Positions 176-19,426 of a stretch of 64,000 nt of DNA are shown in pieces. Made by a program: the position numbers and the translations under genes. Within the stretch, counting starts at the first letter, position 1; each line of letters opens with the position of its first letter. Source of the DNA: Nesterenkonia muleiensis (lineage in GTDB: Bacteria; Actinomycetota; Actinomycetes; Actinomycetales; Micrococcaceae); contig NZ_QWLD01000056.1 in the NCBI RefSeq assembly GCF_003600155.1, positions 62,001-126,000 of the forward strand. Reading direction: 5' to 3'. The notes beneath the pieces are model-generated. The model was not told the DNA's origin and did no database searches. It saw nothing but the letters and a program-made list of their open reading frames with translations.

Positions 176-1771
176 ATGAGCAGCCAATGGGACATCATCA
201 TCGTCGGAGCAGGATCTGCGGGAGCCGTGTTGGCCCACCGGCTCAGCGCGGATCCCGACCGTCAGGTGCTCTTGCTGGAATCTGGACCGGATTACCCCGG
301 TGAACAGATCTCACCCTTCTTGCGCAGTCGGACATTGCGCACCGGACTGAGTATGAAGCCTTCCCACGAGATGGAACCCGATTACTACTTCACCGACATC
401 TCCGCTCGGCGCAGGCCCGACAGATCGCCGATGCTCTATGCCCGTGGACGCGGTGCCGGCGGTTCTTCCTCAGTCAACGGTCTGGTTGCCGTGCGGCCGG
501 AGCAGGATGACTGGCTGCGCTGGGAAGAGCTCGGTGCCAGGGGATGGGGACCAGAGCCGATGCAGCGGGCGTTGATCCGCTTGGAGACTGATCTTGACTA
601 TCCAGACAGTCTCCATCACGGCTCCGGTGGCCCCATTCCAATCCATCGGGAAGCGCCGGACGGGTGGGGTGACGTTGACCAGGCTCTCAACATCGCCGCG
701 GAACGGATGGGACACCCATGGTACGACGACTACAACGCCCCTGGAAGCACCGGGCGCAGCCGTTACCCAGCTAATCACACGCGTGAGTTGCGGCGGATCT
801 CCACCAATCATGGCTATCTGGATCCCGTCCGTAGTAGGCCCAATCTCACTATCCGCGGAGACAGCCATGTCCACGCGGTAGAGTTCGACGGCCAGCGGGC
901 GCGCCGAGTACGCCTGAGCGACGGCAGCACCGTATCGGTGGCACTGGACGGGGAGATCATCCTGAGTGCTGGTGCCGCGCTGAGCCCTGCGATCCTGCTA
1001 CGTAGCGGGATCGGGCCCGCTCATGAGCTGGCTCGGCTGCAGATTCCGGTGGTTTCCGACCTTCCGGTGGGTCAGGGGGCCCAAGATCATGCGATCGCGT
1101 TCGTTCAGTTCACTCCTCATCCCGAACGTCATCTGCCCCAAGGTATGCGGCCCACTCACCTCTCCGTACGCTACTCCTCCGGGCTGGTCGGCACCGGACC
1201 CAACGACATGGTGATTCTGTCCACCAACCACAATTACTGGTTCGGCAATGACACCGCCGGGCTGGCTGTGCAGTTGAACCAGGCTACCTCACGGGGAACA
1301 CTATGGCTTCCTGACGCCGGCTCGGGCACCCAGCCGGTTATCGAGCAGCGGTTGCTGACGACATCAGAAGATGTTGTCCGAATGATTGATGGTGTGGCAA
1401 GGGCCGTGGATCTGATGCGTCAGCCCGAGTTCTCCGCACTGCGCACCGGCGAGATCCAAGCCCCGGCCTCTCGATTGGACCTGCTCGGCCAGGTCAAGGA
1501 CGTCATGCACCTATGCTCCACTGCGCGGATGGGCAGCGAGGGTGATCCGTCCGCCGTCGTCGACTCTCACTGCCGGATTCTCGGAGCCGAAGGGCTGCGT
1601 GTGGTGGATGCCTCGATCTTCCCGGAGATTGTCAGTGCCAATATCAACCTAGCCGTCATCGCCGTCGCCGAGCGCGCCGCTGAACTCATGGTTGGTATCC
1701 CTACTCAGACGATGGACAGCCCAGACTCTGGTGGAGTCTTGGCGAAGACTCCACCGGTATCGATCTCATAG
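176..1771 (+). CDS. GMC-family FAD-dependent oxidoreductase (choline dehydrogenase-like)
   Basis: A 531-aa flavoenzyme expected to oxidise an alcohol to an aldehyde or ketone. The FAD-binding Rossmann motif GAGSAG is at residues 11-16, with the ribose-binding acidic residue in LLLESGPD. The segment GRGAGGSSSVNG is the GMC FAD-attachment region, and LSAGAALSPAILLRSGIGP is the second GMC signature. The C-terminal domain has the catalytic pair His445 (HLCSTARM) and Asn489 (SANIN). The start has a GCAGGAG site 5 nt upstream. Its last 67 nt overlap the convergent carboxylesterase gene, and a hairpin lies inside the overlap. The substrate is unknown; context suggests it supplies the ketone for the nearby Baeyer-Villiger enzyme. 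Confidence 0.9.
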   Translation: MSSQWDIIIVGAGSAGAVLAHRLSADPDRQVLLLESGPDYPGEQISPFLRSRTLRTGLSMKPSHEMEPDYYFTDISARRRPDRSPMLYARGRGAGGSSSVNGLVAVRPEQDDWLRWEELGARGWGPEPMQRALIRLETDLDYPDSLHHGSGGPIPIHREAPDGWGDVDQALNIAAERMGHPWYDDYNAPGSTGRSRYPANHTRELRRISTNHGYLDPVRSRPNLTIRGDSHVHAVEFDGQRARRVRLSDGSTVSVALDGEIILSAGAALSPAILLRSGIGPAHELARLQIPVVSDLPVGQGAQDHAIAFVQFTPHPERHLPQGMRPTHLSVRYSSGLVGTGPNDMVILSTNHNYWFGNDTAGLAVQLNQATSRGTLWLPDAGSGTQPVIEQRLLTTSEDVVRMIDGVARAVDLMRQPEFSALRTGEIQAPASRLDLLGQVKDVMHLCSTARMGSEGDPSAVVDSHCRILGAEGLRVVDASIFPEIVSANINLAVIAVAERAAELMVGIPTQTMDSPDSGGVLAKTPPVSIS

Positions 1772-3090
1772 CGCAGCGGGGCAGCGGCGTCGAAGGGCTT
1801 GACGGGGGGAGAGGCCGCGGAGACGCTAGGCTCACCGGAGACCGCGAAGCCTACGAACATCTGCTCCATCTGCGCAGCCAGCTGCTGAAACTCAGTTGCG
1901 GGCAGATGCCGCAGCATGGGGGCGTCGTGCCAGGTCTCCGCAGTGCCGAAGAGGAAGGGGAGCGGATAGCAGTGCGGGCTGAACGCTCCGGGCAACGGTG
2001 ACTGCGCAGACAGGCCGAGCACATAGACCGGCATCTGCGAGCTGGCTGCTGCGGCGAGTTCCAGCTGAGCGGTGTGGAACTGGTGCAGTGTCATCGCCTC
2101 GATCACCTGCTGCTTAGGCGTGGCCCCTGGCCGCTTGTCCAGGATCAGCCGGCCGGCCCGCGCCGCCTCGGTGAATCGGTTCGTCAGGAACCCCGCCACA
2201 CTCTCGGAGCTGAAGGCCTCCTCCGGCGCTGAGTAGAGGAAGGCCGCTGCCTCTTCGGAGGTGGTCAGCAGCAGCAGACTCTCAGCCCGCAGCCCGGCGG
2301 CTGTCTCGGAGAAGCGGTGCAGATTGGGCGGTACACAACCCCCGGAGGCCGGCATCAGCGGCATCCCACGGCCGGCCCAGCGGCGCACCATACGCCCCTG
2401 GACCTCCAGCAGCTCCTCTGCTGAGGCGGTGGCTAAGCGTGACTCGCCGCCGAGCTCTGCACAGAACCAGCTGCGCCGCTCGGCATAGGCCTCAGGGCTG
2501 AGCGGGTTCTCCCGCGGCAGACTCACCAGCGCCAGGCGTCGGTAAAGCCCTGAGGTCTCGGGAAGGATTGCCGCCGCATAGGCGTACCAGGCGCCGGCAG
2601 AGTCCCCTGCCAGGGTAATGTTCTCCGGGTCGCCGCCGAAGGATCCAATATGCTGACGCACCCAGCGCAGCGCGCACAGCACATCCCGCAGCCCACGTTG
2701 TGACTCCTGTGGCTGACCGGTAGGCCCCAGGTGTCCCCAGACCCCTACCCGGTAGGTCACTGTGACCAGCACTGCTTCCGATCTCTGGAGCCAGGCCGGT
2801 GCGCTGAACCAGCGGGTGTTGCCGCCGCCGGAGAGAAATCCTCCGCCGGGCAGGAAAACGATCACCGGTGCGTCTGCGGCACCATCAGGCGTTTGCACCC
2901 GAACTTGGAAGGCGTCCTCAGTTTGGGAAAGCTCTGAGTTGGCGGAGCCGAGCAGCGCGTTGAGCGCCCCAGGACGCTGCGGGAAGGCCGCGGGCTGGTC
3001 CGGGACCAGCTGTTCCAGAGGGCCTTCGGCCTCGGCAAAACGGTCGGCGGGATCCGCCAGCCGGGCATACCGGAAGCATCGATCACTCAC
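1705..3090 (-). CDS. Type-B carboxylesterase (alpha/beta hydrolase)
   Basis: A 461-aa serine esterase. The oxyanion-hole motif GGGF is at residues 82-85 and the nucleophile Ser164 lies in AGDSAGAW. The C-terminal segment SPHCYPLPFLFG matches the family's HG.DLPF.FG region and supplies the histidine. The start is a GTG whose GTGA overlaps the stop codon of the upstream monooxygenase gene, so translation is probably coupled. The order monooxygenase-esterase fits a step in which the ester made by the Baeyer-Villiger enzyme is hydrolysed. It is somewhat shorter than typical type-B esterases (about 500 aa). The 3' end overlaps the GMC gene. Confidence 0.88.
   Translation of the reverse strand: MSDRCFRYARLADPADRFAEAEGPLEQLVPDQPAAFPQRPGALNALLGSANSELSQTEDAFQVRVQTPDGAADAPVIVFLPGGGFLSGGGNTRWFSAPAWLQRSEAVLVTVTYRVGVWGHLGPTGQPQESQRGLRDVLCALRWVRQHIGSFGGDPENITLAGDSAGAWYAYAAAILPETSGLYRRLALVSLPRENPLSPEAYAERRSWFCAELGGESRLATASAEELLEVQGRMVRRWAGRGMPLMPASGGCVPPNLHRFSETAAGLRAESLLLLTTSEEAAAFLYSAPEEAFSSESVAGFLTNRFTEAARAGRLILDKRPGATPKQQVIEAMTLHQFHTAQLELAAAASSQMPVYVLGLSAQSPLPGAFSPHCYPLPFLFGTAETWHDAPMLRHLPATEFQQLAAQMEQMFVGFAVSGEPSVSAASPPVKPFDAAAPLRYEIDTGGVFAKTPPESGLSIV
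1730..1755. terminator. Bidirectional hairpin inside the overlapping 3' ends of two convergent genes
   Basis: GGTGGAGTCTT (1730-1740), loop GGCG, AAGACTCCACC (1745-1755): an 11-bp perfect stem with a 4-nt loop. It is inside both reading frames: the GMC oxidoreductase stops at 1771 on the plus strand and the carboxylesterase stops at 1705 on the minus strand. Neither side has a long T run, so it may act as a weak terminator or as a 3'-end stabiliser for both transcripts. Confidence 0.6.
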
Positions 3091-5081
3091 GTGAGAAACT
3101 CATAGTCGTCCTCGATGATGCCCTCGGTGATTCGCCAGTACTCCGTGGTACGGAATGGCCAGACTTGGGAGACCCGGCCAAAACGGTTCTGATACCAGGT
3201 GTTCACATACGGCTGGCCCCAGGTCATCTGACGGTTCTCCGCATCCACCCATTCGCAGAACCGATCCAGCGCCTGCTGAGTGAGGTCCAGTGCTTTGGCA
3301 TCGCGCTTCAGCAGCTGATGGATGGCCTCTACTGCGTATTCGGCGGCGCGCTCGATCATAAAGTGTAGGCCTCCCGCCACCACGCCGCCGGTGTTCGGGC
3401 CCAGCAGCATGAACAGATTGGGAAAGTTGGGCACAGTGATCCCGGCGAAGGCCTTGGCATCTCCGCCCCAATAATCGTGGATCTCTAGCCCACCGCGGCC
3501 GACCACCTTAATGGGGTCCAGGTAGTCGGAGGGCCGGAAGCCTGTGGCGTAGATGACCACATCGACGTCGAGAGTCTCCCCGCCACCGGTGACCAATCCG
3601 TGCGGGACGAAACTGCTCAGGCCCTCGGTGACCACCCGGGTGCGCGGACTGCGAAGCGCCTTGGCCCATACACCGTTATCGCGCAGCAAGCGCTTGGCTG
3701 AGGGTGGATAGGTCGGCACGGCCACCTTCAGCAGATCCTCCCGTCCTTCGTACTGCTCCTGATAGCGGGCGATGATCTCCTGGCGGAACTCCTCATTGGC
3801 TGCGGAGACACTGTGTGGGGCGCCCTCCCAACCCTCTTCGGCTCGAGCAATGTGGATGCGGCCGTCGATTCCTCCGGTGGTGACCCACAGCCGAAACCAG
3901 TGCCCGTAGTGCGGCACTTTGCGGTGCAGCCAGTCGGCGGCTGGACTCATCGGCTCGTGATAGGTCGGTGCCGGCAGCATCCACGGAGCGCTGCGCTGGA
4001 AGACGTAGAGCTTGTCCACTTTCTCCGCGATCGCCGGAACGATCTGGTAGGCGCTGGCCCCGGTGCCGATAACCGCCACCTTCTTGCCCTCCAGGGGAAC
4101 GGAGTGATCCCACTCCTGGGAGTGCATCTGGGCGCCCTGAAAGCTCTCCTGCCCCTCCCAGCTGGGGATATGGGGATTGTCCAACTGACCCACACCCATG
4201 ATCACCGCATTGAACCGGCGGGTCTGTTCTCCCTCGGCGGTGGCGGTGGTGGCAGTCCAGGTACCAGTCTCCTCGTCGAAGACGGCGCGCACCAGCCGGG
4301 TGTTCAGCTCAATGGACTCATCGGTGAAGCCGGCGTGCTCAGCCACGGTCTCCAGATAGTCCAGGACCTCCTCACCCTTGGCGAACTGATGCGGCCAGTC
4401 GGTGCGCTGGGCGAAGGAGAAGCTGTAGCCGTAGGTCGGGGTGTCTAACCGCACCCCTGGATAATGGTTCTTCCACCAGGTGCCACCGAGGCGGTGTGAC
4501 GCCTCGATCCAGGTAAACGGCAGCCCGGCCTCCTTCAGCCGCCAGGCTGCGGCCAGCCCGGAGATTCCGGCTCCGACCACCAGTGTCTCGAAGGGTTTCT
4601 CCCCGGCGTAGTCCTCATAACTCCAGCGTGGAGAGCCGTTCTTGTCCGGTGCCAAATCCAGTTCATGTTTGAGCTGCCCCGCCCAGGAAGGGTCGCGCGT
4701 GCGCCCGTCAGTGAACCAGTCGAGAATCTCATCCACCAGATCTTGGGGGAGGACATCGACACGGTCGATCCGCTCATCACGAAGGCGTTTCAGCGCCTGC
4801 AGGGCCACCTCTGCGGCCTTCTCCTGCTGAGTGTCATCCATTCCGCCGTGGGGTTTGAGGTAGGCGCCCATCGGCGGCAGCGGGGGCCGGAGTTCGTCGC
4901 TGAGAATCGATGAGTCCTGCAGCGCCGCAGCCAGCGAGGCCAGCAGGACCGGCAGCTCAGAAGAGGTGATGATCTCGTGCAGCTCAGTGTCGGTCTCGGT
5001 GATCGGTTCGTACTGGTCGATCCAATAGAGGTCCCCATTCACTGACTCGGTGGTGGGATGGGTTTGCTGGGTCACACTCAT
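3087..5081 (-). CDS. Long-form Baeyer-Villiger monooxygenase (4-hydroxyacetophenone monooxygenase-like)
   Basis: A 664-aa NADPH- and FAD-dependent enzyme that inserts oxygen next to a ketone carbonyl to give an ester or lactone. It shows two Rossmann motifs (GAGISG at 170-175, GTGASA at 339-344) with the Baeyer-Villiger fingerprint FxGxxxHxxxWD at 314-325 between them. An N-terminal extension of about 165 residues before the first FAD motif is typical of the 4-hydroxyacetophenone monooxygenase (HAPMO) type. The ATG at 5081 overlaps the upstream stop as ATGA. The same frame stays open upstream, but that part is only a shadow of the preceding gene. It overlaps the downstream carboxylesterase as GTGA. 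The real substrate is unknown. Confidence 0.9.
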   Translation of the reverse strand: MSVTQQTHPTTESVNGDLYWIDQYEPITETDTELHEIITSSELPVLLASLAAALQDSSILSDELRPPLPPMGAYLKPHGGMDDTQQEKAAEVALQALKRLRDERIDRVDVLPQDLVDEILDWFTDGRTRDPSWAGQLKHELDLAPDKNGSPRWSYEDYAGEKPFETLVVGAGISGLAAAWRLKEAGLPFTWIEASHRLGGTWWKNHYPGVRLDTPTYGYSFSFAQRTDWPHQFAKGEEVLDYLETVAEHAGFTDESIELNTRLVRAVFDEETGTWTATTATAEGEQTRRFNAVIMGVGQLDNPHIPSWEGQESFQGAQMHSQEWDHSVPLEGKKVAVIGTGASAYQIVPAIAEKVDKLYVFQRSAPWMLPAPTYHEPMSPAADWLHRKVPHYGHWFRLWVTTGGIDGRIHIARAEEGWEGAPHSVSAANEEFRQEIIARYQEQYEGREDLLKVAVPTYPPSAKRLLRDNGVWAKALRSPRTRVVTEGLSSFVPHGLVTGGGETLDVDVVIYATGFRPSDYLDPIKVVGRGGLEIHDYWGGDAKAFAGITVPNFPNLFMLLGPNTGGVVAGGLHFMIERAAEYAVEAIHQLLKRDAKALDLTQQALDRFCEWVDAENRQMTWGQPYVNTWYQNRFGRVSQVWPFRTTEYWRITEGIIEDDYEFLT

Positions 5082-6769: not shown

Positions 6770-6808
6770 CGCCAACTCTCCTCTCAGGACTGTTTTGAGT
6801 CCCGCCGC

Positions 6809-7651
6809 TCAGTCACTTATGCGATTGGTGAGTGTGCCGAGTCCGGTGATCTCTACCTCCACCAGATCGCCCGGGGCGAGAAAGGTGGGGGGATCCATGA
6901 ACAGGCCCACACCGCCGGGAGTGCCGGTGACGATCACATCGCCGGGTTCTAGCGGGGTGAAGGTGGAGACGTACTCAATGAGAGCGGGGATGTCGAACAG
7001 CAGGTCAGAGATGTCGGCGTGTTGGCGAACTTCGCCGTTGACCCGGGTCTCCAGGGTCAACGAGGTGACATCCTCAATATCCTCGGCCGGTGTGTAATAG
7101 GGGCCGAAAGGACCGGAGGACGGGAAGTTCTTGCCGGGGATCCACTGGCCGGTGTGGCGCTGCCAGTCGCGGGCCGAAAGGTCGTTGAAGGGTGCGTATC
7201 CAGCCACATGGTCGAAAGCGCTCTGCGCGGAGACCTTCCAGGCCCGGGTGCCGATCACCAGGGCGAGTTCGCCCTCATAGTCGTACTTTTCCGACTCTGC
7301 GGGGAGCGGTGCCTCGGCGCCGTGCGGCCACAGGGTGTCGGAGAAGCGGGAGAAGACAGTTGGGTAGGCGACATCGGGCCGGCCGGTCTCTTCCTTATGG
7401 GCCCGGTAGTTCACACCGATGCAGATGATCTTTCCCGGGTTCTCCAGCACCGTCAGGAACTCGGTGCCGTCCACTGGCTGGCTGGGAGCTTGCGAGACAG
7501 GGCCGATCCCGCTGAGCAGACCACCGACGATGGCGTCTTTCAGCGAGGCTGCGATGTTCAGGCCCGAAGGTCCGAGGTCGTAGAGCGTACCGCGGTCCTC
7601 TGCTCCCCATGTGGACTGACCAGCGCTGTTCCTGTAACTCGCGTAACGCAT
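6809..7651 (-). CDS. Fumarylacetoacetate hydrolase (FAH) family protein
   Basis: A 280-aa protein of the FAH/2-hydroxyhepta-2,4-diene-1,7-dioate isomerase family, which cleaves C-C bonds or isomerises or decarboxylates ring-fission products. Family features are YRAHKEETG, the metal-binding acidic cluster in YDYEGELALVIG, the NDLSARDWQ segment and the C-terminal TGTPGGVG loop. It is first in a four-gene minus-strand operon with hydroxylase, Baeyer-Villiger enzyme and esterase. A GGAGGAG site precedes the ATG. The role as hydrolase of a meta-cleavage or related product is inferred from the extradiol-type dioxygenase across the divergent promoter region. Confidence 0.88.
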   Translation of the reverse strand: MRYASYRNSAGQSTWGAEDRGTLYDLGPSGLNIAASLKDAIVGGLLSGIGPVSQAPSQPVDGTEFLTVLENPGKIICIGVNYRAHKEETGRPDVAYPTVFSRFSDTLWPHGAEAPLPAESEKYDYEGELALVIGTRAWKVSAQSAFDHVAGYAPFNDLSARDWQRHTGQWIPGKNFPSSGPFGPYYTPAEDIEDVTSLTLETRVNGEVRQHADISDLLFDIPALIEYVSTFTPLEPGDVIVTGTPGGVGLFMDPPTFLAPGDLVEVEITGLGTLTNRISD

Positions 7652-7678
7652 TGAAGCTCCTCCCCGATGTGAGACAAG

Positions 7679-7692
7679 GTGACTGGTGTCAC
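7679..7692. promoter_or_regulatory. Candidate operator GTGAC-N4-GTCAC upstream of the FAH operon
   Basis: Inverted repeat GTGAC TGGT GTCAC lies 28 bp upstream of the FAH gene start, in the 163-bp region shared with the divergent GntR/FCD gene. The same arms with the same spacing occur at 13141-13154 upstream of the ABC transporter SBP gene. The rest of this region is AT-rich (7730-7780) and includes ATGCATTATTTATG, a likely promoter zone. Regulation by the FCD protein is inferred. Confidence 0.45.
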
Positions 7693-7814
7693 TTCTGAAA
7701 GTTCAACATATCTCAGGATTCTGCACAGGTCAACAAGAAATGCATTATTTATGATTTTTCACTTCAGCGCCAGTGTGAGCAACTATCGATTGTTCCGTCT
7801 GTATACTCTGAGCC

Positions 7815-8501
7815 ATGGCGAGACGCGGAAAGTCGCAGACTCTCAGCACAGATGTGCGGGATAAGTTGCGGCAGGACATATTGGACGGATGTTGGTCGCC
7901 CGGCGAGAAGCTGCAATTGGTGGGGCTTTCCGACCGATATGGCACCAGCAGCACCGTGATCCGTGAAGCCTTGACGAGGCTCTCGGGAGAGCGGCTGGTA
8001 GAGCTGAAGCCTAACCGCGGGTTCTTCGTCCCGGGACTCTCGTTGGAACAGCTTAAGGATTTCAACGAACTGCGCTGCCTTTCCGAGGAGTTTGGAATCA
8101 GGCTGGCGATTGAGCGCGGCGACCTCCAGTGGGAGTCAGAAGTGATCGCTGCCCATCACACGTTAGAGCGCACTCCGCAGTATGCGGAGGAGGGTAGTCA
8201 TAACCTTAATGCGGCCTGGCGCACGGCCCATAAGAACTTCCACGAAAAACTGCTCTCAGCCTGCCAGCTTCCAGTGCTTATGGGTTTGACGTCGAATCTG
8301 GCTGACGAGACGTCCCTCTACCGGCGTTGGGCGGCACCAGGGGTGAAGACTCGGGAGCGGGATATTGCTGCAGAGCATCGGGAGATTCTCGAGGCGGTGC
8401 TCAATCGCGATGCCGAGGCAGCGGGACCGCTCCTGCGAAAGCACTACACCACGTCGATGGAGATGATCCTCACAGTCGGACTGATTGCACCTGATGAGTG
8501 A
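7815..8501 (+). CDS. GntR-family transcriptional regulator with FCD ligand domain
   Basis: A 228-aa regulator. The N-terminal winged helix (residues about 8-75) contains LRQDILDGCWSPGEKL and the recognition segment YGTSSTVIREALTRLSGERLVEL. The C-terminal FCD domain is alpha-helical, with ELRCLSEEFGIRLAI and the later histidine-containing helices (NFHEKL, AEHREILEAV) that usually bind metal and ligand. It is divergent from the FAH operon and precedes the VOC dioxygenase, so it probably controls the catabolic genes. FCD proteins usually respond to carboxylic acids. The ligand here is unknown. Confidence 0.88.
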   Translation: MARRGKSQTLSTDVRDKLRQDILDGCWSPGEKLQLVGLSDRYGTSSTVIREALTRLSGERLVELKPNRGFFVPGLSLEQLKDFNELRCLSEEFGIRLAIERGDLQWESEVIAAHHTLERTPQYAEEGSHNLNAAWRTAHKNFHEKLLSACQLPVLMGLTSNLADETSLYRRWAAPGVKTRERDIAAEHREILEAVLNRDAEAAGPLLRKHYTTSMEMILTVGLIAPDE

Positions 8502-8592
8502 AGCATCGTTCGGCAAAATAGTGCATTATTGGTAACATTTGTACTATCGGGCCCGAGCCCGTGTTTCTCTATCACCGGCGATAGGAGTTTCC

Positions 8593-9483
8593 ATGGCATT
8601 CGGCGTCATCAGCGAGATCGGCTATATCTGCATCCATTCCAGCAATATTGAACAGTCGCTGGGTCACGCCCGCGATATCCTCGGTCTTGTCGAGACGGAT
8701 CGCACAGGCAATGCGGTCTTCCTCTCCTCCCGGGCCAAGCGCCACCACGAGCTGGTCTACATCGACGCGCAGCGCGACGCTGTGGGCCAAGTCGGGCTCA
8801 TCGCAGCCGGCCCCACCGGGCTCAGGGAGGCTCGTCGACGGGTCCAGGACGCCGGTTATCCGATCCTCACCGATCTCCCCTTGCACCCAGGGGTTGAAGA
8901 TGGTTTCTCCTTTGCTGGTCCGGAGGGATTCATCTTCGAAATCTACATAGGTCCGCAGAAGTCTGATGTAGTTCCCGCGGGACACGCTCCGGACCGATTC
9001 GGCCACGTGAACCTGCATCCGAAGAACGTTGAGGCGATGCGGCACTTTTTCGTCGACGTCCTGGACTTTCGAGTCAGCGACATCATTGGTGACGATTTCG
9101 CCTATTTCCTGCGGTGCAATACCGAGCACCACGGTATTGCCCTGATTCGCGGCGCCGGGTGGCTGCACCATCATGCGTGGCAAGTGCAATCAATCGCTGA
9201 GCTTGGCAAAGTGGCCGACCGTCTCTGCGATCACGGAATGCGGCTGCTGATGGGACCGGTTCGGCATGGGGCCGGGCATAACATGGCTGCATACTATGTG
9301 GAGCCCAGTGGTGCGGTAGTCGAGCTCTACACCGACCTTGAGCACATTTACGACGACGAGCGCCCGCCAGTGATCTGGCCCGCTGAGGACCAGAAGTGGG
9401 CGACGCGTTGGGCTCTGTACGACTTCACTGAATTCCGCTCCCATGGGCTGTTCCCGGCCGGAGAAGCTGTCTCTGCCGAGTAG
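8593..9483 (+). CDS. VOC-family extradiol-type ring-cleavage dioxygenase
   Basis: A 296-aa two-domain vicinal-oxygen-chelate protein. The C-terminal domain holds the likely 2-His-1-carboxylate iron site: His138 (FGHVNLHP), His193/His194 (WLHHHAWQV) and Glu244 (VVELYTD). This matches 2,3-dihydroxybiphenyl/catechol 2,3-dioxygenases, which cleave a catechol next to the hydroxyls. The true start is ATG 8593 behind ATAGGAG; an upstream in-frame ATG at 8539 has no site. It sits after the FCD regulator and opposite the hydroxylase/FAH operon. Other VOC reactions are possible, but the metal ligands favour dioxygenase. Confidence 0.82.
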   Translation: MAFGVISEIGYICIHSSNIEQSLGHARDILGLVETDRTGNAVFLSSRAKRHHELVYIDAQRDAVGQVGLIAAGPTGLREARRRVQDAGYPILTDLPLHPGVEDGFSFAGPEGFIFEIYIGPQKSDVVPAGHAPDRFGHVNLHPKNVEAMRHFFVDVLDFRVSDIIGDDFAYFLRCNTEHHGIALIRGAGWLHHHAWQVQSIAELGKVADRLCDHGMRLLMGPVRHGAGHNMAAYYVEPSGAVVELYTDLEHIYDDERPPVIWPAEDQKWATRWALYDFTEFRSHGLFPAGEAVSAE

Positions 9484-9513
9484 GCAGTCCTCAGACCACT
9501 CTTCTATGGGCAA

Positions 9514-9550
9514 TTCGCCCCGGGCACCTTCAGAACGGGCCCGGGGCGAA
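9514..9550. terminator. Strong bidirectional terminator hairpin between convergent genes
   Basis: TTCGCCCCGGGC (9514-9525) pairs perfectly with GCCCGGGGCGAA (9539-9550), leaving a 13-nt loop. It sits between the VOC dioxygenase stop (9483, plus) and the ABC ATPase stop (9575, minus). The 12-bp GC-rich stem and symmetric place support termination of both transcripts. Confidence 0.75.
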
Positions 9551-9574
9551 ACTCTCAGCTGATTGACAGAGGCG

Positions 9575-10390
9575 TTAGGCCTTACGCAGGCGGGTGAGGA
9601 TGCGTCCGCGGGCGTCCTGGAACCGTGGATCCGCCTTGGTGTCCACCTGGTCTCGGACCGTCCCGAAACCTGTTTCGATGACGTCTACTACTGTCGCCGG
9701 CTTCTCGGCGATCACGATGACCCGGTCTGCCAGGTAGATCGCCTCGTCAACGTCGTGGGTGACAAGAACAATAGTCACCCCCAAGGCCTCGCGGAGGTTG
9801 ACCACGAGATCCTCCAGGTCGAAGCGGGTTTGGGCATCCACTGAGGCGAAGGGTTCGTCCATCAGCAGTACTTTGGCGTGGTAGGCCAGCGCGCGCGCAA
9901 TAGCCACTCGCTGCTGCATACCACCGGACATCTCCCACGGGTATTTGTCTCCTTGGCCTGACAGGCCCACTTCCTCCAAGGACTCCTCTGCGCGACGGTT
10001 GCGCTCCCTCCTGCCCACACCTTGGCCCTGAAGAGGAAATGCGACGTTTTCGCGGGTGGTCATCCAGGGCATGAGCGACCGTGAGTAGTCTTGGAAGACT
10101 GCAGCAATGTCTGGATGCGGACCAGTGATTGTCTGGCCGGCGACGCTGACAGTGCCCCTTTTGGGAGGAAGCAGTCCGGACAGTCCACGAAGCAGTGTCG
10201 TCTTCCCGACGCCAGAGGGCCCCACGATGGAGACGAATTCACTGTGACCCACCTTAAGGTTGAGGTCCTCCAAGATGCGCTTCTCGTGTTCGCCGTCGCC
10301 ATAACCCATCGACACATGGGAGACGTCCAATAGCACCTCCCCGCCAAGGACGTCCAGGGAACCGGTGTGAATTGACTGGGGAGCCGTCAT
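9575..10390 (-). CDS. ABC transporter ATP-binding protein (SsuB/TauB/NrtD type)
   Basis: A 271-aa ATPase powering an importer. Walker A is GPSGVGKTT, the signature is MSGGMQQRV, Walker B is KVLLMDEPFASVD, and the H-loop is in LVTHDVDEAIYL, whose wording is typical of nitrate/sulfonate/taurine-type ATPases. I placed the start at ATG 10390 because AAGGAGGAG lies just upstream. An ATG at 10465 overlaps the permease stop as TGATG but has no ribosome site. It is last in the minus-strand order SBP, permease, permease, ATPase. Confidence 0.9.
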   Translation of the reverse strand: MTAPQSIHTGSLDVLGGEVLLDVSHVSMGYGDGEHEKRILEDLNLKVGHSEFVSIVGPSGVGKTTLLRGLSGLLPPKRGTVSVAGQTITGPHPDIAAVFQDYSRSLMPWMTTRENVAFPLQGQGVGRRERNRRAEESLEEVGLSGQGDKYPWEMSGGMQQRVAIARALAYHAKVLLMDEPFASVDAQTRFDLEDLVVNLREALGVTIVLVTHDVDEAIYLADRVIVIAEKPATVVDVIETGFGTVRDQVDTKADPRFQDARGRILTRLRKA

Positions 10391-10464
10391 GGGGATCCCT
10401 CCTCCTTGTGTAGTGCTGCGGTTGTCTGATGTCTGGCTTTGACGAAAGTGATTGTCGAGGCTCA

Positions 10465-11226
10465 TCACAGGGCACCGGAGCGGAAGTACCACGAGAGTAC
10501 CCTTCGTTCGAACAGGCTGAACATGATCACGATGATGTATCCGATCACTCCCACCATGAGTGCTCCGCCCCAGGTTTCGGGTATTTGGAACGTGGCTGAA
10601 GAGTTGAGAATGTAGAAACCCAAGCCTTGGTTGGAAGCGAACAGCTCACTGACCACCATCACGACGATGCCGATGGGGAGGGCTACTCGCAGTCCTGCGA
10701 CGACCTGGGGCATTGCTCCTGGCAGAACCACGCGGCGGAAATAGAGCAGCTTCGGCACCCCGAACACTCTGGAGACGCTGCGAATCGTCGGCTCTACGCC
10801 GCGTACACCGTCAATGGTATTCAGCAGGATCGGCCACACGCAGGCGAAGGCCACCGTGTAGATCTTCGGTGCGGCACCGATTCCCATGGCTCCGATGATC
10901 AGAGGGACCAACGCAGACTGTGGCACAGAGCGGAAGAAGTGAATATAGGGATCGAGGATCAGGCGCAATCTGCGCGTTTCTCCGATCAGTAGGCCCAGTA
11001 GAATCCCTACGGCAGCGGCAATGAGCAAGCCGACCGCCAGGTTGGTGAGGCTCACACGTGCCGCGTCGATGAGCAGCCCGCTGCTGATATCTCGCCAGAG
11101 CACTTCTACGATGCGGCTCAGGGACGGCACATAGATGTTGGTGCTGTTGGCAGAGGCGAACCACCAGATGGTCACCAATAGAACGGGCAGCCAAAGAGTC
11201 CACCCGGCTCGGATCAAGGTCTTCAT
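10465..11226 (-). CDS. ABC transporter permease (SsuC/TauC type)
   Basis: A 253-aa inner-membrane permease with about six membrane helices. It carries the binding-protein-dependent transport domain and the EAA-type loop in the stretch FGVPKLLYFRRVVLPGAMPQ, which docks on the ATPase. ATG 11226 is preceded by GAAGGGA; the TTG one codon earlier is a weaker choice. It follows a second permease, 42 bp upstream on the same strand, so the channel is probably a heterodimer. Confidence 0.88.
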   Translation of the reverse strand: MKTLIRAGWTLWLPVLLVTIWWFASANSTNIYVPSLSRIVEVLWRDISSGLLIDAARVSLTNLAVGLLIAAAVGILLGLLIGETRRLRLILDPYIHFFRSVPQSALVPLIIGAMGIGAAPKIYTVAFACVWPILLNTIDGVRGVEPTIRSVSRVFGVPKLLYFRRVVLPGAMPQVVAGLRVALPIGIVVMVVSELFASNQGLGFYILNSSATFQIPETWGGALMVGVIGYIIVIMFSLFERRVLSWYFRSGAL

Positions 11227-11268
11227 CAACGTGTCCCTTCATCTGTGCTCATCGCTGGAATGTCTCCG

Positions 11269-12096
11269 TCAGCCACTGGCTTGCCTGTTCCACGCCAGCA
11301 GGGAACTCTCGGCGCGGGCTAGCAATGCTGTGACTGTCCAGCCGAAGAGGCCTGCGAAGAAGAGATAGGCGAAAGCCAGGTCCCAGCGTTGGGCCTCTTG
11401 GGCCAGAGTGATCATGCGACCGATGCCGGGCACCTGCGTGAGCACCTCGATGCCCACTGCCGCCAAGATGGAGATTGAAGCTGCGATCCTCACCCCAGTG
11501 GTGACGAACGGCAGGGCCGAGGGCAGAAGGACACGTCTGAACCAGAGCAGGCGAGGTATGCGATAGATGCGGACTGTGTCGGCGATCCCGGGATCAAGAC
11601 GACGGGCTCCCAATATGGATTGGACGAGGACTGGCCACAGGGCGGACAGGACCACCATAGTGATTTGCATGGATGTGGTGGCGCCCAGAAGGAGCAGGAT
11701 CACCGGCATCAGGGCAATGGTGGGAAAGGCGCGACCGAACTCGACAGTCACCGATGTGGATCGGTCCAACCAGCGGAGAGGGCCGATCAACAGCCCCAGG
11801 AAGACCCCCAGGACACAGGAAATGATCCATCCGGCTGTTGCCGCGGACAGTGTCTGGCCGAGAGCAGTCCAGAAGCTGGTGGAGGTCACTGCAGTCCACA
11901 GCCCGAGAGTGACCTCGGGCACTGTGGGGGTGATCGATGGCAGCAGGCCAGTCAGTACGGCAGCCTGCCAGAGAGCCAGAATGATGCCAAGGGCTCCCAG
12001 CCGCTGAGCCAGAAGAGACCAATCCCGCTGCAGCAAAGCACTGCGCCGGGGGGCTTTCGTCTCTGCTGACGGTGCCCGGGTGTGGGTCGTGGTCAT
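11269..12096 (-). CDS. ABC transporter permease (SsuC/TauC type), second subunit
   Basis: A 275-aa permease homologous to its downstream neighbour. The N-terminal 30 residues are hydrophilic, followed by membrane helices and the loop YRIPRLLWFRRVLLPSALPF, the same EAA-type motif as in the partner. The gene starts 15 bp after the SBP stop, so the two are in one operon. Two different permeases encoded side by side is common in NMT1/Thi5-like and sulfonate-type systems. Confidence 0.88.
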   Translation of the reverse strand: MTTTHTRAPSAETKAPRRSALLQRDWSLLAQRLGALGIILALWQAAVLTGLLPSITPTVPEVTLGLWTAVTSTSFWTALGQTLSAATAGWIISCVLGVFLGLLIGPLRWLDRSTSVTVEFGRAFPTIALMPVILLLLGATTSMQITMVVLSALWPVLVQSILGARRLDPGIADTVRIYRIPRLLWFRRVLLPSALPFVTTGVRIAASISILAAVGIEVLTQVPGIGRMITLAQEAQRWDLAFAYLFFAGLFGWTVTALLARAESSLLAWNRQASG

Positions 12097-12111
12097 AAGC
12101 GTTCGCCGGGC

Positions 12112-13092
12112 CTAGTGCCGCGGCGCCCCTTCCCACAGAATATCGTCAACGCTCTTAGGGTCATCCACGATGCCGAACTCGTCAAGCGCCTCAGTGGTTC
12201 TCTGGGCGACTTCTGTGTCGACAGAAATGTTGAAGGGAATGAATTCCCAGTCGACCTCATCAATCTCCTGTTCGCTGACTTCGGAGCGAATCTCAAGGAT
12301 TGCCTCACGATTATCCGCATCTTCGTAGAATTCGATGGCCCGCGTCATCGCCTCGTTGAACTGCTCGGCAGTGTCCGGGTTCTCCTCCAGCCATTCTTCG
12401 GTCCCGGCCCACAGTGTGATCGGCAGGCCGCCACGGAACTCACGGGAGGGGTGGGAGATCGATCGATAGTCGTCGTTGGCAGAGATCTGGTGGAAGTAGC
12501 TGTCCGAGGGAAACACTGCCTCGACTTGGTCGTTCTCTAGGGCCGCTTCCATAGAGGCGAACGGAAGCGACACTTGAGTGACGGAGTCAGCATCGACGCC
12601 GTCGGCTTCCAGCGCTTGCAGGACAGGCACATTGCCGCCGGAGCCTACCGAGTTGAACGCGATGGTGCGTCCCTCCAGGTCGCCCATGGACTCGATGTCG
12701 CTGTCCTCGCGCACGAACACGCCTGAGGTGTCGAACTCTTCACTGATGACGGCGTTGGAGGAGATCACTTTGATCGGTACCCCCTCCTGTGTAGCGCTGA
12801 CTGCTGCGTCCCAGGAGATGATGCTCAGGTCTACCGAGCCTCCGGCGAGCTGCCCCAGGTTGTCTTGCGCAGTTCCTCCTGGACGGATGTCCACCTCGAG
12901 CCCGACCTCTTCAAAGTAGCCTTCTCGCTCTGCGACATAAACCGCCTCATAGTTGATGGGGGCGTGCAGTACCGTGAGTTCCTGGACTTCCCCGTCACCA
13001 TTGTCGGTGGAGTCGTTGCCGCATGCGGCGAGAGCGAGCAGCGCCCCGGAGGCCGCTGTTGCGCGGAGTCCGGTGTGGATGCTGTGTCTCAT
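12112..13092 (-). CDS. ABC transporter substrate-binding lipoprotein (NMT1/THI5/SsuA-like)
   Basis: A 326-aa exported lipoprotein. A short signal peptide ends in LALAAC with the lipidated Cys24. The mature part begins with acidic residues, then ELTVLHAPINYEAVYVAEREGYFEEVGLEVDI, typical of the NMT1/SsuA fold, where 'vAeekGyFeeeGLdVe' opens the domain. The family binds sulfonates, nitrate, pyrimidines or aromatic compounds. It is the first gene of the importer operon, and the 178-bp region before it carries two palindromes. The ligand is not deducible; clustering with oxygenases suggests an aromatic or heterocyclic compound. Confidence 0.88.
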   Translation of the reverse strand: MRHSIHTGLRATAASGALLALAACGNDSTDNGDGEVQELTVLHAPINYEAVYVAEREGYFEEVGLEVDIRPGGTAQDNLGQLAGGSVDLSIISWDAAVSATQEGVPIKVISSNAVISEEFDTSGVFVREDSDIESMGDLEGRTIAFNSVGSGGNVPVLQALEADGVDADSVTQVSLPFASMEAALENDQVEAVFPSDSYFHQISANDDYRSISHPSREFRGGLPITLWAGTEEWLEENPDTAEQFNEAMTRAIEFYEDADNREAILEIRSEVSEQEIDEVDWEFIPFNISVDTEVAQRTTEALDEFGIVDDPKSVDDILWEGAPRH

Positions 13093-13140
13093 GAGGTCTC
13101 TCTTTCGTGTGAGTGATTGGTTGTGCCCAGAGCCGATGCC

Positions 13141-13170
13141 GTGACCCCGGTCACACTTAATTATGCATAA
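13141..13170. promoter_or_regulatory. Two adjoining palindromes upstream of the ABC importer operon
   Basis: GTGAC-CCCG-GTCAC (13141-13154) repeats the arm sequence and spacing found at 7679-7692. TTATGCATAA (13161-13170) is a perfect 10-bp palindrome. Both lie 49-78 bp upstream of the SBP start in the gap between the monooxygenase stop and the importer operon. They suggest a separately regulated promoter shared with the FAH operon. Confidence 0.45.
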
Positions 13171-13270
13171 ATGAACGATAACGCGTAATTGTAGGATTAA
13201 ACAAGACCTGGATCTGGTGTCTTATCGGGTATCACTGACGGTCGGGTGTAGCCTTTTGCGGAAGCATGGC

Positions 13271-14584
13271 TTAAGCCGAAGGTCGTGGCAGGCCAAAGTG
13301 GTCACGCAGGGTGGCACCTTCATACTCCGCGCGCGCGTAACCACGGTTCTGCAGCTCCGGGACCAGTTTCTCGCACATCTGCTGCATGCCGCCTGGATTG
13401 TAGGGGGAGTTCAGATTGAACCCGTCGCAAGCGTAGGACTCGAACCAGTCGACCATGACATCAGCGATGGATTGGGGGGTTCCGATGATCCACTGGTGGC
13501 CGGCCGAGCGGGCCAGGTCCACAATGAGATCGCGCAGGGTCATCTTCTGCTCCACCGACTTGCGGCGGAAGACGTGGTACCGACTGCCCATGTTGGGGTC
13601 CAGGCTGAACCATTCCTCGGGAATCTGCTCGTCTTCGCTCAGCTCGGACAGGTCCATCTTCAGGCCTGCCTCCACCTGTTTGCGGCCGAATTCGATATTC
13701 ACGTAGGAAGCCAGCTCCGCGGCGAGCTCTTCGGCCTCGGACGCCGTCTCGCCGATGATGGGCAGGATGCCCGGCAGAACGTGGGTGTGATCCGGATTGC
13801 GGCCCTTCGCGGACAGCATCTTCTTGAAGTCAGCATAGAACTCCACGGCGCGCTCTTTGACCGGTTGTGCGGTGTAGATGGCGTCGGCCACTGAACTGCC
13901 CAGCTCCAGCCCGGGGCCGGAGGAGCCGGCTTGGACAATGATGGGGTGACCCTGAGGGGCCCGGGGTCCGGGCGCGGGGCCCTCGACCTGGAAATGTTCA
14001 CCGCTGTGATTGATCCGGCGGACTTTGCCCAGATCTGCGTAGTGGCCCCCGGTGCGGTCAGCGATGACGGCGTCGTCTGCCCAGGAGTCCCAGAGGCGGG
14101 TGACCACCTCAGCGAACTCGGTGGCCCGGCGGTAGCGGTCCTCCGGTGCCGGAATGCCCTCCTTGCTGTAGTTGGCAAAGCCGTCGAAGGAGGTCACCAG
14201 GTTCCAGCCGGCACGCCCATTGGACATATGGTCTACCCCGGCGATCTGCCGGGCTACGGTGTAAGGGCTCTCGAAAGAGGTAGACATCGTGCCGATCAGG
14301 CCAATGTGAGTAGTCCGGGCTGCCAAGGCTGACAGAGTGGAGATCGGTTCGTAGTACCCGTTGGTCTTGATATCGCCGCGCAGTGTCGGGTTCGCATGGG
14401 CCACATCGCCGAAGAAGACGGCGTCGATCTTGGCTCGCTCGGCCATCTGGGTCAGCTCTGTGACGTAGTCCAGCCCTGGGACTTCCTCGATCCGGCTGCC
14501 CGCTCTGCGCCAGGCGTCCTTGTGGTGGCCGGCGGGGATGACGAAGGTGGTGAGTGCCATGCGCTGTGATCGTGTGCGGGGCAT
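13271..14584 (-). CDS. NtaA/SnaA/DszA-type FMNH2-dependent monooxygenase
   Basis: A 437-aa luciferase-like (TIM-barrel) monooxygenase of the two-component class that uses reduced flavin from a separate reductase. Family wording includes FVIPAGHHKDAWR near the N-terminus, the segment GRAGWNLVTSFD and HPIIVQAGSSGPGLELGSSVADAIYT. Relatives act on nitrilotriacetate, dibenzothiophene sulfone, pristinamycin and riboflavin. The ATG at 14584 has AAAGG upstream; a second in-frame ATG at 14560 has none. It is divergent from the flavin reductase fusion, which is the natural partner. Confidence 0.88.
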   Translation of the reverse strand: MPRTRSQRMALTTFVIPAGHHKDAWRRAGSRIEEVPGLDYVTELTQMAERAKIDAVFFGDVAHANPTLRGDIKTNGYYEPISTLSALAARTTHIGLIGTMSTSFESPYTVARQIAGVDHMSNGRAGWNLVTSFDGFANYSKEGIPAPEDRYRRATEFAEVVTRLWDSWADDAVIADRTGGHYADLGKVRRINHSGEHFQVEGPAPGPRAPQGHPIIVQAGSSGPGLELGSSVADAIYTAQPVKERAVEFYADFKKMLSAKGRNPDHTHVLPGILPIIGETASEAEELAAELASYVNIEFGRKQVEAGLKMDLSELSEDEQIPEEWFSLDPNMGSRYHVFRRKSVEQKMTLRDLIVDLARSAGHQWIIGTPQSIADVMVDWFESYACDGFNLNSPYNPGGMQQMCEKLVPELQNRGYARAEYEGATLRDHFGLPRPSA

Positions 14585-14792
14585 GTGCTGAGCCTTTCTG
14601 CCTGGAGGGGGTCCTCTGACATTGTGAGCCAGAACACTTCATTCATGCCAGTAGAAACTTCTGTCCTTATCTTTCAAGGGAGCTGATGATAGACAGGTCA
14701 CTGTAAAAAATATATTCTTACTGTGATAGTGCACACATTGGCCTTCTGTGGACCGTCTGCAGAGCGACATCGGCCAGCCAGGTGAGGAGACG

Positions 14793-16046
14793 ATGATGAC
14801 CATCAGCACTGAACCCGCACACACCATTGACCCCCGAACATTCCGTGACGTGATGGGGCACTACCCCACTGGTGTGGTTCTTGTGACAGGGATGCTCGAT
14901 CAGCAGCCGATCGGGATGGTCGTGGGGACTTTCAGCTCGGTTTCCCTCGAACCGCCGCTGGTGTCCTTTATGCCCATGACGACCTCAGAGACCTACGCGA
15001 AGCTGCGCCAGGCGGAGAACCTCTGCATCAATGTGCTCGCCCACGACCAGTCAAGCGTCTGCCGCACTCTGGCTTCCAAGGACCCGGAGAAGTTCCACAA
15101 GGTCGACTGGGAGCTCTCGGACTACGGCGCACCGCAGATCAAGGGCGCCGTGGCTCATATTCACTGCCGTCTCGATCAAGAGGTTGAGGCCGGTGACCAC
15201 TACATCTCACTGTGTGCGGTTGATGACCTACAAGTAGTGCGATCGGTGACCCCGCTGCTGTTCTTCCAGGGCGGGTACGGCGGATTCTCTACCACTGGGA
15301 TGGCCGCATACCTGGACGAGGAGCTCATCTCTGCAGTCCGTGTGGCCGAGGCTGCTCGGCCTCAGCTGGACCGGTTGGCCGATACCCACCGCTGCTCAGC
15401 CGCGGCCCTGATCCAGATCGACGAGACCGCTCAGACAATCGGTGCCAGCTCTTACGGTGGCTCGACCGAAATGGACGAACGCATCGGGGTGCGTATCCCG
15501 CTGATTCCGCCGCTGGGCGAGGCAGCGGTGGCCTGGAGCCCGCAGCAGTCGCAGCGCTGGCTCGATCAGATCTTCCCCCAGGATGAAGAGGTCATTTTCG
15601 GATATCGCCAGACCCTGGAGAAGGTGCGTGATCAGGGTTATGCGGTGGCTCGCATCGGTGACAGTGACCAGGAGGGGTACGTCCAGCTCAGTGAGGCGCT
15701 GAGGGAGTATGGTCTGGGCGAACTCACTCCTGTGCGTGAACGCGAGGTTCGTCGTGTCTTCGCCGAAAGCCACCGTTACTTCGGCGGGAGCATAGGGACT
15801 GAGGAGACGGGACTGAACATCGCCTCCGTCGTCGTCCCGGTCTTCGACCCCGCTGAGCAGAGTCTTCGGAACTCGGGGCTGGTGCTGCGCCTGGGCAATC
15901 TGCCGCAGGGTGTGGACGCGGAAACCGTGGCGCACTGGGTGAATGACCTGCAGCAGGCAGCCGACGAGGTCCGTGACACGCTTGGCTCAGTCGCCCAGCG
16001 GGACTTCACCCGTTACCGTGCGACGGAACTGCGCGGCGGTGCTTAA
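14793..16046 (+). CDS. Flavin reductase fused to an IclR-like effector-binding domain
   Basis: A 417-aa two-domain protein. Residues about 10-165 form a flavin reductase-like FMN-binding domain (FRDVMGHYPTGVVLVTG, VGTFSSVSLEPPLVSFMP, NVLAHDQSSVCRTLASKD). Residues about 190-410 resemble the effector domain of IclR regulators (GVRIPLIPPLGEAAVAWSP, LEKVRDQGYAV, a late IASVVVPVFD and a final helix). There is no helix-turn-helix, so it is not a DNA-binding IclR protein. It would supply FMNH2 to the divergent NtaA-type monooxygenase. The extra domain suggests that reductase activity is tuned by the substrate. Start ATG 14793 follows GGTGAGGAG. It overlaps the next convergent gene by 4 nt. Confidence 0.85.
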   Translation: MMTISTEPAHTIDPRTFRDVMGHYPTGVVLVTGMLDQQPIGMVVGTFSSVSLEPPLVSFMPMTTSETYAKLRQAENLCINVLAHDQSSVCRTLASKDPEKFHKVDWELSDYGAPQIKGAVAHIHCRLDQEVEAGDHYISLCAVDDLQVVRSVTPLLFFQGGYGGFSTTGMAAYLDEELISAVRVAEAARPQLDRLADTHRCSAAALIQIDETAQTIGASSYGGSTEMDERIGVRIPLIPPLGEAAVAWSPQQSQRWLDQIFPQDEEVIFGYRQTLEKVRDQGYAVARIGDSDQEGYVQLSEALREYGLGELTPVREREVRRVFAESHRYFGGSIGTEETGLNIASVVVPVFDPAEQSLRNSGLVLRLGNLPQGVDAETVAHWVNDLQQAADEVRDTLGSVAQRDFTRYRATELRGGA

Positions 16047-19258: not shown

Positions 19259-19426
19259 TGCCACCTCACGGTCATTGCTGGGTCGAGGATTTTCACATGG
19301 TCGAAGATCGTCACATCACTGTGCGCGCAACCATCCTAGGTCGCGTACCCATCATCACCCTAAAGAATTCTTGATTTCGGCAGTGTGTCATGCAGCACTG
19401 TGCCGAGCCGGTGCTACCGTCACACT

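Follow-up and report, generated by a model that had tools for sequence, protein, structure and literature searches.

The window analysed here is a stretch of 64,000 nucleotides of Nesterenkonia muleiensis (contig NZ_QWLD01000056.1, positions 62,001 to 126,000), whose genome assembly comprises 3.68 Mb in 57 contigs with 98% completeness. Positions 176 to 16046 carry a set of putative catabolic genes that includes a Baeyer-Villiger monooxygenase (BVMO), an esterase and ring-opening enzymes, and this gene set is the subject of the present analysis. An earlier note, made from the sequence letters, had listed its gene types. The list was borne out, as every type named was found at 176-16046 by Pfam and NCBIfam profile searches, the two permeases and the ATPase of the importer being recognised from their translations and orthologues. 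The genes are the following:

176..1771, plus strand, GMC-family oxidoreductase of 531 amino acids (aa), probably accessory (PF00732, PF05199)
1705..3090, minus strand, type-B carboxylesterase of 461 aa (PF00135), with the nucleophile motif GDSAG, also present in orthologues
3087..5081, minus strand, type I BVMO of 664 aa, assigned by motifs, start and relatives at 46-74% identity
5078..6775, minus strand, MhpA-type flavin adenine dinucleotide (FAD) aromatic hydroxylase of up to 565 aa (PF01494 and motifs; NF004831 and NF004829 below their cut-offs)
6809..7651, minus strand, fumarylacetoacetate-hydrolase (FAH)-family protein of 280 aa (PF01557)
7815..8501, plus strand, GntR/FCD transcriptional regulator (PF07729, PF00392)
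8593..9483, plus strand, VOC-fold extradiol-type dioxygenase of 296 aa from the ATG at 8593 (open reading frame from 8539; TIGR03211 and TIGR02295 below cut-off)
9575..10492, minus strand, ABC transporter ATPase (translation; relatives at 76-80% in loci L011, L012 and L016)
10465..11229, minus strand, ABC transporter permease 1 (translation and relatives)
11269..12096, minus strand, ABC transporter permease 2 (translation and relatives)
12112..13092, minus strand, NMT1/SsuA-type substrate-binding protein (PF09084; TIGR01728 below cut-off)
13271..14584, minus strand, NtaA/DmoA-family flavin mononucleotide-dependent monooxygenase of 437 aa (TIGR03860 above cut-off)
14793..16046, plus strand, flavin reductase (open reading frame from 14748; PF01613 over residues 36-179 only)

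The FAH, hydroxylase, BVMO and esterase genes form one minus-strand run with gaps of 33, -4 and -4 bp, the BVMO gene overlapping the hydroxylase and esterase genes by 4 bp each, and the FCD regulator is divergent from this run across a 163-bp gap. A second minus-strand run holds NtaA, the binding protein, the two permeases and the ATPase, with a gap of 178 bp following NtaA. The cluster is truncated by the window edge and continues upstream for about 11.3 kb (locus L018, contig bases 50671-62001) in the order HpaB-type oxygenase, MmgE/PrpD-family protein (PrpD), second MhpA-type hydroxylase, second VOC extradiol-type enzyme, LysR regulator, VAO-type FAD oxidase, second NMT1-type binding protein, aldehyde dehydrogenase and TetR regulator, followed by the GMC gene at window position 176. 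The VAO-type oxidase gene stands between the LysR and binding protein genes with gaps under 150 bp. Farther upstream, directly beside the cluster, a PcaR-like regulator, a PcaF-like thiolase and two CoA-transferase subunits are found in a run ending in an iron-type dehydrogenase, and two of the four best PDB relatives of the latter are named maleylacetate reductase. With moderate confidence, for the reading as a whole, we regard the window genes as a section of a catabolic cluster of roughly 27 kb directed at a para-substituted phenol, perhaps of plant or plastic type, which would be degraded via a ketone, a Baeyer-Villiger step and ring opening.

The distribution of the genes was studied in 197 related genomes of 75 genera, own genome included, at thresholds chosen by the analyst; the counts cover the BVMO, the VOC enzyme, HpaB, PrpD, the oxidase, NtaA and the flavin reductase. 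The BVMO (1e-150), the VOC enzyme (1e-40), HpaB (1e-120) and PrpD (1e-60) were each found in ten genomes, and these are the identical ten (G000, G066, G087, G089, G091, G100, G101, G108, G111 and G113), belonging to six of the 75 genera. The naive chance of one identical ten-genome set is 5e-17, or 5e-9 when calculated by genus, both figures ignoring common descent. The oxidase reached 1e-100 in 16 genomes, with 59-100% identity in these ten and 37-40% in the remaining six, and NtaA reached 1e-150 in 12, the ten plus G010 and G060. The flavin reductase departs from this pattern: at 1e-60 it was found in ten genomes, with at least 65% identity only in G000, G087 and G108 and with relatives at 39-42% in G066 and six genomes outside the ten-genome set, and the clusters of seven of the ten genomes have weaker reductase matches (30-34%). 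The gene set is thus far more than a chance neighbourhood.

Gene order adds to this picture. Nine loci emerged from a genome-collection search; they belong to Citricoccus, Kocuria, Arthrobacter, Mycetocola, Leucobacter and another member of the Microbacteriaceae. In the Mycetocola locus (L016), a stretch of about 21 kb has 17 genes in the order and orientation of the window genome, namely NtaA, binding protein, permeases, ATPase, VOC, FCD, FAH, hydroxylase, BVMO, esterase, GMC, TetR, aldehyde dehydrogenase, second binding protein, oxidase and LysR. HpaB and PrpD were not seen in the 22 kb of this locus. Parts of the gene set are present in 16 other BVMO-bearing loci. Both the BVMO and the esterase gene were found in 17 loci; they lie within 200 bp of one another in 16 and 4.7 kb apart in L015. 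That the cluster genes form one pathway, as the earlier note had proposed, is therefore well supported by the co-occurrence in 10 of 197 genomes, the synteny with L016 and the adjacency of BVMO and esterase. The note had also named a complete lack of co-occurrence elsewhere as the result that would speak against it, and the check gave the opposite result, with the genes together in the same ten genomes.

Regarding the origin of the cluster, the oxidase, NtaA and the VOC enzyme are 80, 80 and 75% identical to those of Mycetocola, versus 59-68, 63-67 and 51-55% to those of the nine family genomes. The BVMO was absent at 1e-150 from the 20 same-genus genomes listed, and the G+C content of the island is 62.3%, versus 64.1 and 64.7% on its flanks. 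These identities, the same-genus absence and the G+C content suggest a transfer between families, perhaps as a mosaic. The BVMO is equally close to G087 and G108 (74 and 73%) as to Mycetocola (72%), and the hydroxylase and esterase of Mycetocola are no closer than those of G087 and G108, so these three genes do not support transfer.

Concerning the proposed first step, the VAO-type protein gave 39 PDB matches, and the best 33 of them (7pbg presumably so) are enzymes that oxidise 4-phenols, with vanillyl-alcohol dehydrogenase variants at the top (1e-123) and eugenol oxidase next (2e-109). The matches were classed by entry name or, for the 8s7 and 9ffk/9fge entries, by PMC7617285. The GYGG and PYR motifs of the Tyr-Tyr-Arg phenolate triad, whose residues have been assigned their roles in phenolate binding (PMC12507022, in the part cited), are kept in 14 of 14 oxidase locus rows, own included. 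The same rows keep the His motif GGH, aligned to the GGH of 8s7n, which predicts a covalent FAD linkage. The sections cited of PMC12909556 describe that VAOs usually stop at the alcohol and that PvVAO over-oxidises 4-alkylphenols to ketones. A Novosphingobium plasmid with HpaB and two 4-phenol oxidases is a distant parallel only; it lacks gene annotation, and no PrpD or BVMO match was obtained on it.

The window BVMO contains the fingerprint FQGAQMHSQEWD and the second type I motif GGTWWKNHYPGVRLD, and it agrees with the HAPMO-type motifs FxGxxxHxxxW(P/D) and (G/A)GxWxxxx(F/Y)P and two Rossmann motifs. The end of the fingerprint is W-D in 16 of 19 BVMO locus rows and WN, WS and WK in the other three. 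The likely start is the ATG at 5081 (664 aa) and not the start of the longer reading frame, leaving about 165 residues before the first GxGxxG (residue 171 of the 665-residue query). HAPMO carries an N-terminal extension before its FAD domain (PMC10028610, in the section cited), and by its motifs and extension the window enzyme is probably of HAPMO type. As for other relatives, Arthrobacter sp. MAHUQ-56 (L014, L012) has three BVMO genes, two of them convergent within one stretch (products 69 and 58% identical to the window protein) and the third on a separate contig (71%). Plasmids of Rhodococcus pyridinivorans and Sphingomonas MM-1 also carry BVMO relatives, in other gene surroundings and without a hint of a substrate.

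The ring-opening set was assigned as follows. The VOC enzyme has two domains, its top profiles are catechol_2_3 and HpaD, both below cut-off, and its best PDB match is 3b59. The motifs GH, HHHAW and ELY are kept in 15 VOC locus rows, as expected for a type I extradiol enzyme, and hold the His/His/Glu residues that we take to be the ligands. PDB matches of the FAH protein include HpcE, FAHD1 and a diketo-deoxyrhamnonate hydrolase. Own genome gave a single intradiol profile match, above the curated cut-off but partial (profile positions 19-97 of 182, E 2.9e-9), and the other nine cluster genomes gave near-full-length matches of 1e-55 or better. Since the intradiol match of own genome is partial, the island extradiol enzymes are the natural ring openers, which suggests that ring opening in the window's genome depends on them. 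PF18191, for PnpCD-type two-subunit hydroquinone dioxygenases, was found in 0 of 10 cluster genomes, control genomes being likewise silent. The 4-hydroxybenzoate hydroxylase profile scored 34.5 bits in own genome and 291-419 bits in the other nine cluster genomes, all ten below its cut-off of 538.7. In a genome of 98% completeness, this weak match and the partial intradiol match argue against a substrate that yields 4-hydroxybenzoate, and an alkyl or acyl-alkyl 4-hydroxyphenyl substrate is therefore favoured. As a separate observation, the second hydroxylase and second VOC genes (L018, 9583-12148) lie in one run with HpaB and PrpD, and the sole counterpart assigned to this pair elsewhere, among the loci compared, is a 33% hydroxylase match in L014.

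The earlier note had also spoken of an importer belonging to the pathway. An importer is indeed present, but its type varies among the relatives in the stretches compared. The NMT1-type ABC set occurs in many loci; the stretches of G087, G108 and Kocuria L013 have instead genes for another ABC set, whose binding protein is of Fbp type and whose permease is large, along with an MFS protein that resembles, below cut-off, the metabolite:H+ symporters; and G066, G089, G091, G100, G101 and G111 have the whole or part of the NMT1-type ABC set together with an MFS protein. Organic anions are frequent cargo of both transporter classes, a hint that the substrate is a charged aromatic compound.

From the gene content, co-occurrence, synteny and motifs observed, we infer the reactions, the order of the steps and the substrate class as follows. 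The 4-phenol oxidase (VAO/PCMH family) would oxidise the benzylic carbon of a 4-hydroxyphenyl substrate to give an aryl ketone, the BVMO would convert the ketone to an aryl ester, and the type-B esterase would split the ester into a hydroquinone-type phenol and a carboxylate. A further ring hydroxyl may be added by HpaB with the flavin reductase, by the MhpA-type hydroxylase, or by both. Then, the VOC enzyme would open the ring in extradiol fashion, the FAH-family enzyme would hydrolyse the diketo-acid-like product, and the aldehyde dehydrogenase and the neighbouring beta-ketoadipate-type operon could carry out the final steps. The FCD, LysR and TetR proteins are the candidate regulators, and the NMT1-type ABC importer is the candidate for uptake.

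Several observations weigh against this route. The flavin N5 loop of the oxidase has Ala, not the Asp or Glu of the oxidase type, in 14 of 14 rows; Table 1 of PMC7617285 gives Asp, Glu or Thr at this position for VAO, EUGO, EPO, VAD, EUGH and nsVAO and Ala for PCMH, and the matching change D152A abolished the activity of BpfA of Microbacterium sp. F2, as reported in the cited part of PMC12507022. The oxidase encoded in the bpf-like cluster of a plasmid of Sphingobium SJTF8 naturally has Ala as well, and the island oxidase, with its PCMH-type Ala beside oxidase-type His and Leu, appears to mix both types. In addition, four genomes have 22-108 kb between the VOC and BVMO genes, and a fifth has the two on different contigs. 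The three Pca-like genes tested are all below the curated Pca cut-offs, and their Pca-type names rest on these matches. At 45% identity or more, GMC was found in only one other BVMO-bearing locus, and PrpD, NtaA and GMC are left unexplained by the route. HpaB might also act first, as in an alkylcatechol meta-pathway (see below). Concerning GMC itself, its relatives are 70% identical in Mycetocola L016 and 49% near NtaA in G060 and G010, and its assignment as a mycofactocin or choline enzyme was rejected, all such profiles being below cut-off.

The ring-opening set could also serve a two-ring plant phenol such as a flavanone, isoflavonoid or stilbenoid, with the MhpA-type hydroxylase, VOC and FAH enzymes opening one ring as in the fde and ifc pathways and the 4-phenol oxidase, BVMO and esterase attacking the p-hydroxyphenyl side. 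This is unlikely, although a FAD hydroxylase and a glyoxalase-type dioxygenase do act on the flavonoid A ring in fde/ifc (PMC11069340, PMC8552027, in the parts cited), a pair of functions that the island shares by description. A Rhizobium plasmid also has relatives of the hydroxylase (50%), FAH (45%) and VOC (57%) proteins beside a cupin gene. However, the cupins IfcD1/D2 belong to ifc, whereas none was found among the 25 scanned proteins of own cluster and upstream flank (ABC permeases and ATPase excluded), and the cupin of the G100 cluster is fused to a DNA-binding domain; a BVMO or 4-phenol oxidase is not mentioned for fde/ifc in the sections cited. The Rhizobium plasmid, p5 of Rhizobium sp. 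NZLR1, is typed as conjugative and carries the genes in a hydroxylase-cupin-FAH-VOC run (L057, 10826-14894).

The published route of bisphenol F degradation is the nearest model of the island mechanism. In this route, established by experiment, the bridge carbon is oxidised to 4,4'-dihydroxybenzophenone, a Baeyer-Villiger step gives an ester, and hydrolysis gives 4-hydroxybenzoate and hydroquinone (PMC12724174; first step also PMC12507022; in the parts cited). The bpf systems (Sphingobium yanoikuyae DN12; BpfA of Microbacterium sp. F2) have in common with the island a 4-phenol oxidase, a Baeyer-Villiger enzyme and an esterase-type hydrolase, which are clustered in the island and are predicted there, too, to turn a 4-hydroxybenzyl compound into hydroquinone and an acid. 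In DN12, the oxidase is cytochrome-c-linked and the BVMO has 402 aa, whereas the island has no cytochrome gene beside the oxidase and a 664-aa type I BVMO, and it additionally clusters HpaB, PrpD, NtaA, hydroxylase, VOC, FAH and importer genes. The island itself might encode a bisphenol-F-type (diarylmethane) pathway, in which the oxidase would give dihydroxybenzophenone, the BVMO an aryl benzoate and the esterase hydroquinone and 4-hydroxybenzoate. The three enzyme functions equal those of the published pathway, and the island oxidase is 42% identical to that of the SJTF8 bpf-like plasmid, with the Ala common to both. Nevertheless, this seems quite improbable, as with the weak 4-hydroxybenzoate hydroxylase match (34.5 bits) and the partial intradiol match the usual routes would leave one half of the molecule unused, and the need for an acid-type importer would be hard to see.

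On plasmid pF1 of Sphingobium yanoikuyae SJTF8 (L059, NZ_CP033227.1), two divergent copies (15387-16595 and 5386-6594) agree with the bpf layout as published, and also in two gene lengths (1,209 and 906 bp). The 402-aa protein in the place of BpfC has a GDAAH motif, 30% identity to the island PF01494-type hydroxylase and no type I BVMO motifs, whereas the DN12 paper, in the section cited, reports such motifs in BpfC (PMC12724174). Either the strains differ or the published class of BpfC needs checking.

Two other known systems resemble the front end of the proposed route. In the hap pathway of Pseudomonas fluorescens ACB, an esterase splits 4-hydroxyphenyl acetate. Its BVMO also has an N-terminal extension (PMC10028610), and hydroquinone is released via 4-hydroxyphenyl acetate, much as proposed for the island, but a hydroquinone dioxygenase then opens it directly (PMC3727088), whereas the island clusters an extradiol-type VOC enzyme with FAH. 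For acetophenone in Rhodococcus rhodochrous GD02, a BVMO and esterase step was likewise proposed, from transcriptomics; acpAB consists of two genes with a PAMO-like BVMO, and no 4-phenol oxidase is mentioned in the cited sections (PMC9618137). In GD02, the BVMO relative adjoins an MhpA-type hydroxylase (35% identical to the window protein) and a GntR regulator, with no 4-phenol oxidase match.

The upstream HpaB-type oxygenase contains PF11794 (HpaB_N) and PF03241 (HpaB), with the NCBIfam HpaB equivalogs below cut-off. The neighbourhood of the flavin reductase was counted in the 15 loci with a match of at least 27% identity and 60 bits. In nine of them, HpaB is no more than 1.7 kb away (L012, L015, G066, G089, G091, G100, G101, G111 and G113), in three NtaA is within 200 bp (own, G010 and G060), and in the other three neither is close by (G087, G108 and L013). 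The reductase is thus likely the partner of the upstream HpaB-type oxygenase, and perhaps also of NtaA; NtaA as its sole owner was rejected on the nine loci beside HpaB. The arrangement is like that of the HpaB/HpaC two-component phenol hydroxylases, whereas the island HpaB is below the curated HpaB cut-offs and the reductase extends by about 250 further residues at its C-terminus, which are conserved across four aligned orthologues. This extra region gave no Pfam (1e-3) or PDB sequence (0.1) matches, PDB hits ending near residue 182, and it is possibly a ligand-sensing domain. The same pairing in 9 of 15 loci would suit an alkylphenol meta-pathway, in which HpaB and the reductase give an alkylcatechol, the VOC enzyme cleaves it, a FAH-type enzyme and the aldehyde dehydrogenase follow, and BVMO and esterase are a side branch. 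Although catechol_2_3 and HpaD as top VOC profiles, both below cut-off, point the same way, we regard this pathway as rather improbable because it leaves the identical genome set of BVMO and 4-phenol oxidase unexplained.

The earlier note had assigned an early oxidation of an imported ketone, sulfone or heterocycle to the NtaA-type enzyme with the flavin reductase. NtaA clearly belongs to its family (460 bits against TIGR03860, cut-off 279.7; best PDB relatives NtaA, YtnJ, MoxC, DszA and EmoA) and is present in all ten cluster genomes; in the window, NtaA and the reductase are neighbours in divergent orientation, and in G060 and G010 the two are again adjacent, together with importer and GMC. 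Pairing of the two is possible but not the usual arrangement, as 9 of 15 loci have the reductase next to HpaB/PrpD. Moreover, G060 and G010, which pair them without HpaB, are without BVMO too. The 4-phenol oxidase outside the window is a better candidate for the early oxidation, so this part of the note was not supported. Its suggestion of a sulfone or heterocycle substrate was likewise rejected, since no gene for sulfur or heterocycles was seen. Overall, an early NtaA step is very unlikely. The G060 and G010 runs (L054, L055), with NtaA, flavin reductase, ABC importer set and GMC and without BVMO or a close 4-phenol oxidase, are a second, different home of the NtaA enzyme; in G060, genes for an S15-type hydrolase, a SnoaL-like protein and an Fbp-type binding protein belong to the run too, and they have relatives in G010.

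Finally, two or more unrelated pathways lying side by side would fit the second FCD regulator and the physical separation of the VOC-FAH-hydroxylase module in several genomes, but this is hardly credible given the identical presence over 197 genomes even with BVMO and VOC up to 108 kb apart.

Returning to the para-substituted phenol route, a more specific version can be put forward tentatively, and taken as a whole it is rather doubtful. The cluster may represent an undescribed, horizontally spread Micrococcales pathway for natural 4-hydroxyphenyl ketones or 4-alkylphenols, in which the Ala-variant oxidase feeds the BVMO, the hydroquinone is hydroxylated by HpaB and opened by the extradiol VOC and FAH enzymes rather than by a hydroquinone or intradiol dioxygenase, and PrpD and NtaA act in aromatic-pathway steps new for their families. 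The enzyme families are ordinary and their combination is new; a description of this gene set, or of the front-end chemistry with this ring-opening set, was not found in the open-licence PMC papers searched. If the para-substituted phenol route is right, it would link 4-phenol-oxidase/Baeyer-Villiger chemistry to a conserved ring-opening set and an importer in common soil actinobacteria, provide testable enzymes for lignin-derived alkylphenols and phenolic ketones, and offer a first setting within aromatic degradation for proteins of the MmgE/PrpD and NtaA types. Regarding PrpD, a plasmid search at 1e-50 gave no match, and the PrpD frame of G108 looks interrupted (two tblastn pieces, one in-frame stop; contig 61, 54.0-55.4 kb).

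Downstream of the flavin reductase, the gene at 16043-19264 is present in none of the other loci compared and was not counted as a cluster member. Its 1073-aa product reads, from the translation, as a beta-phosphoglucomutase-type HAD domain fused to a sugar phosphorylase.

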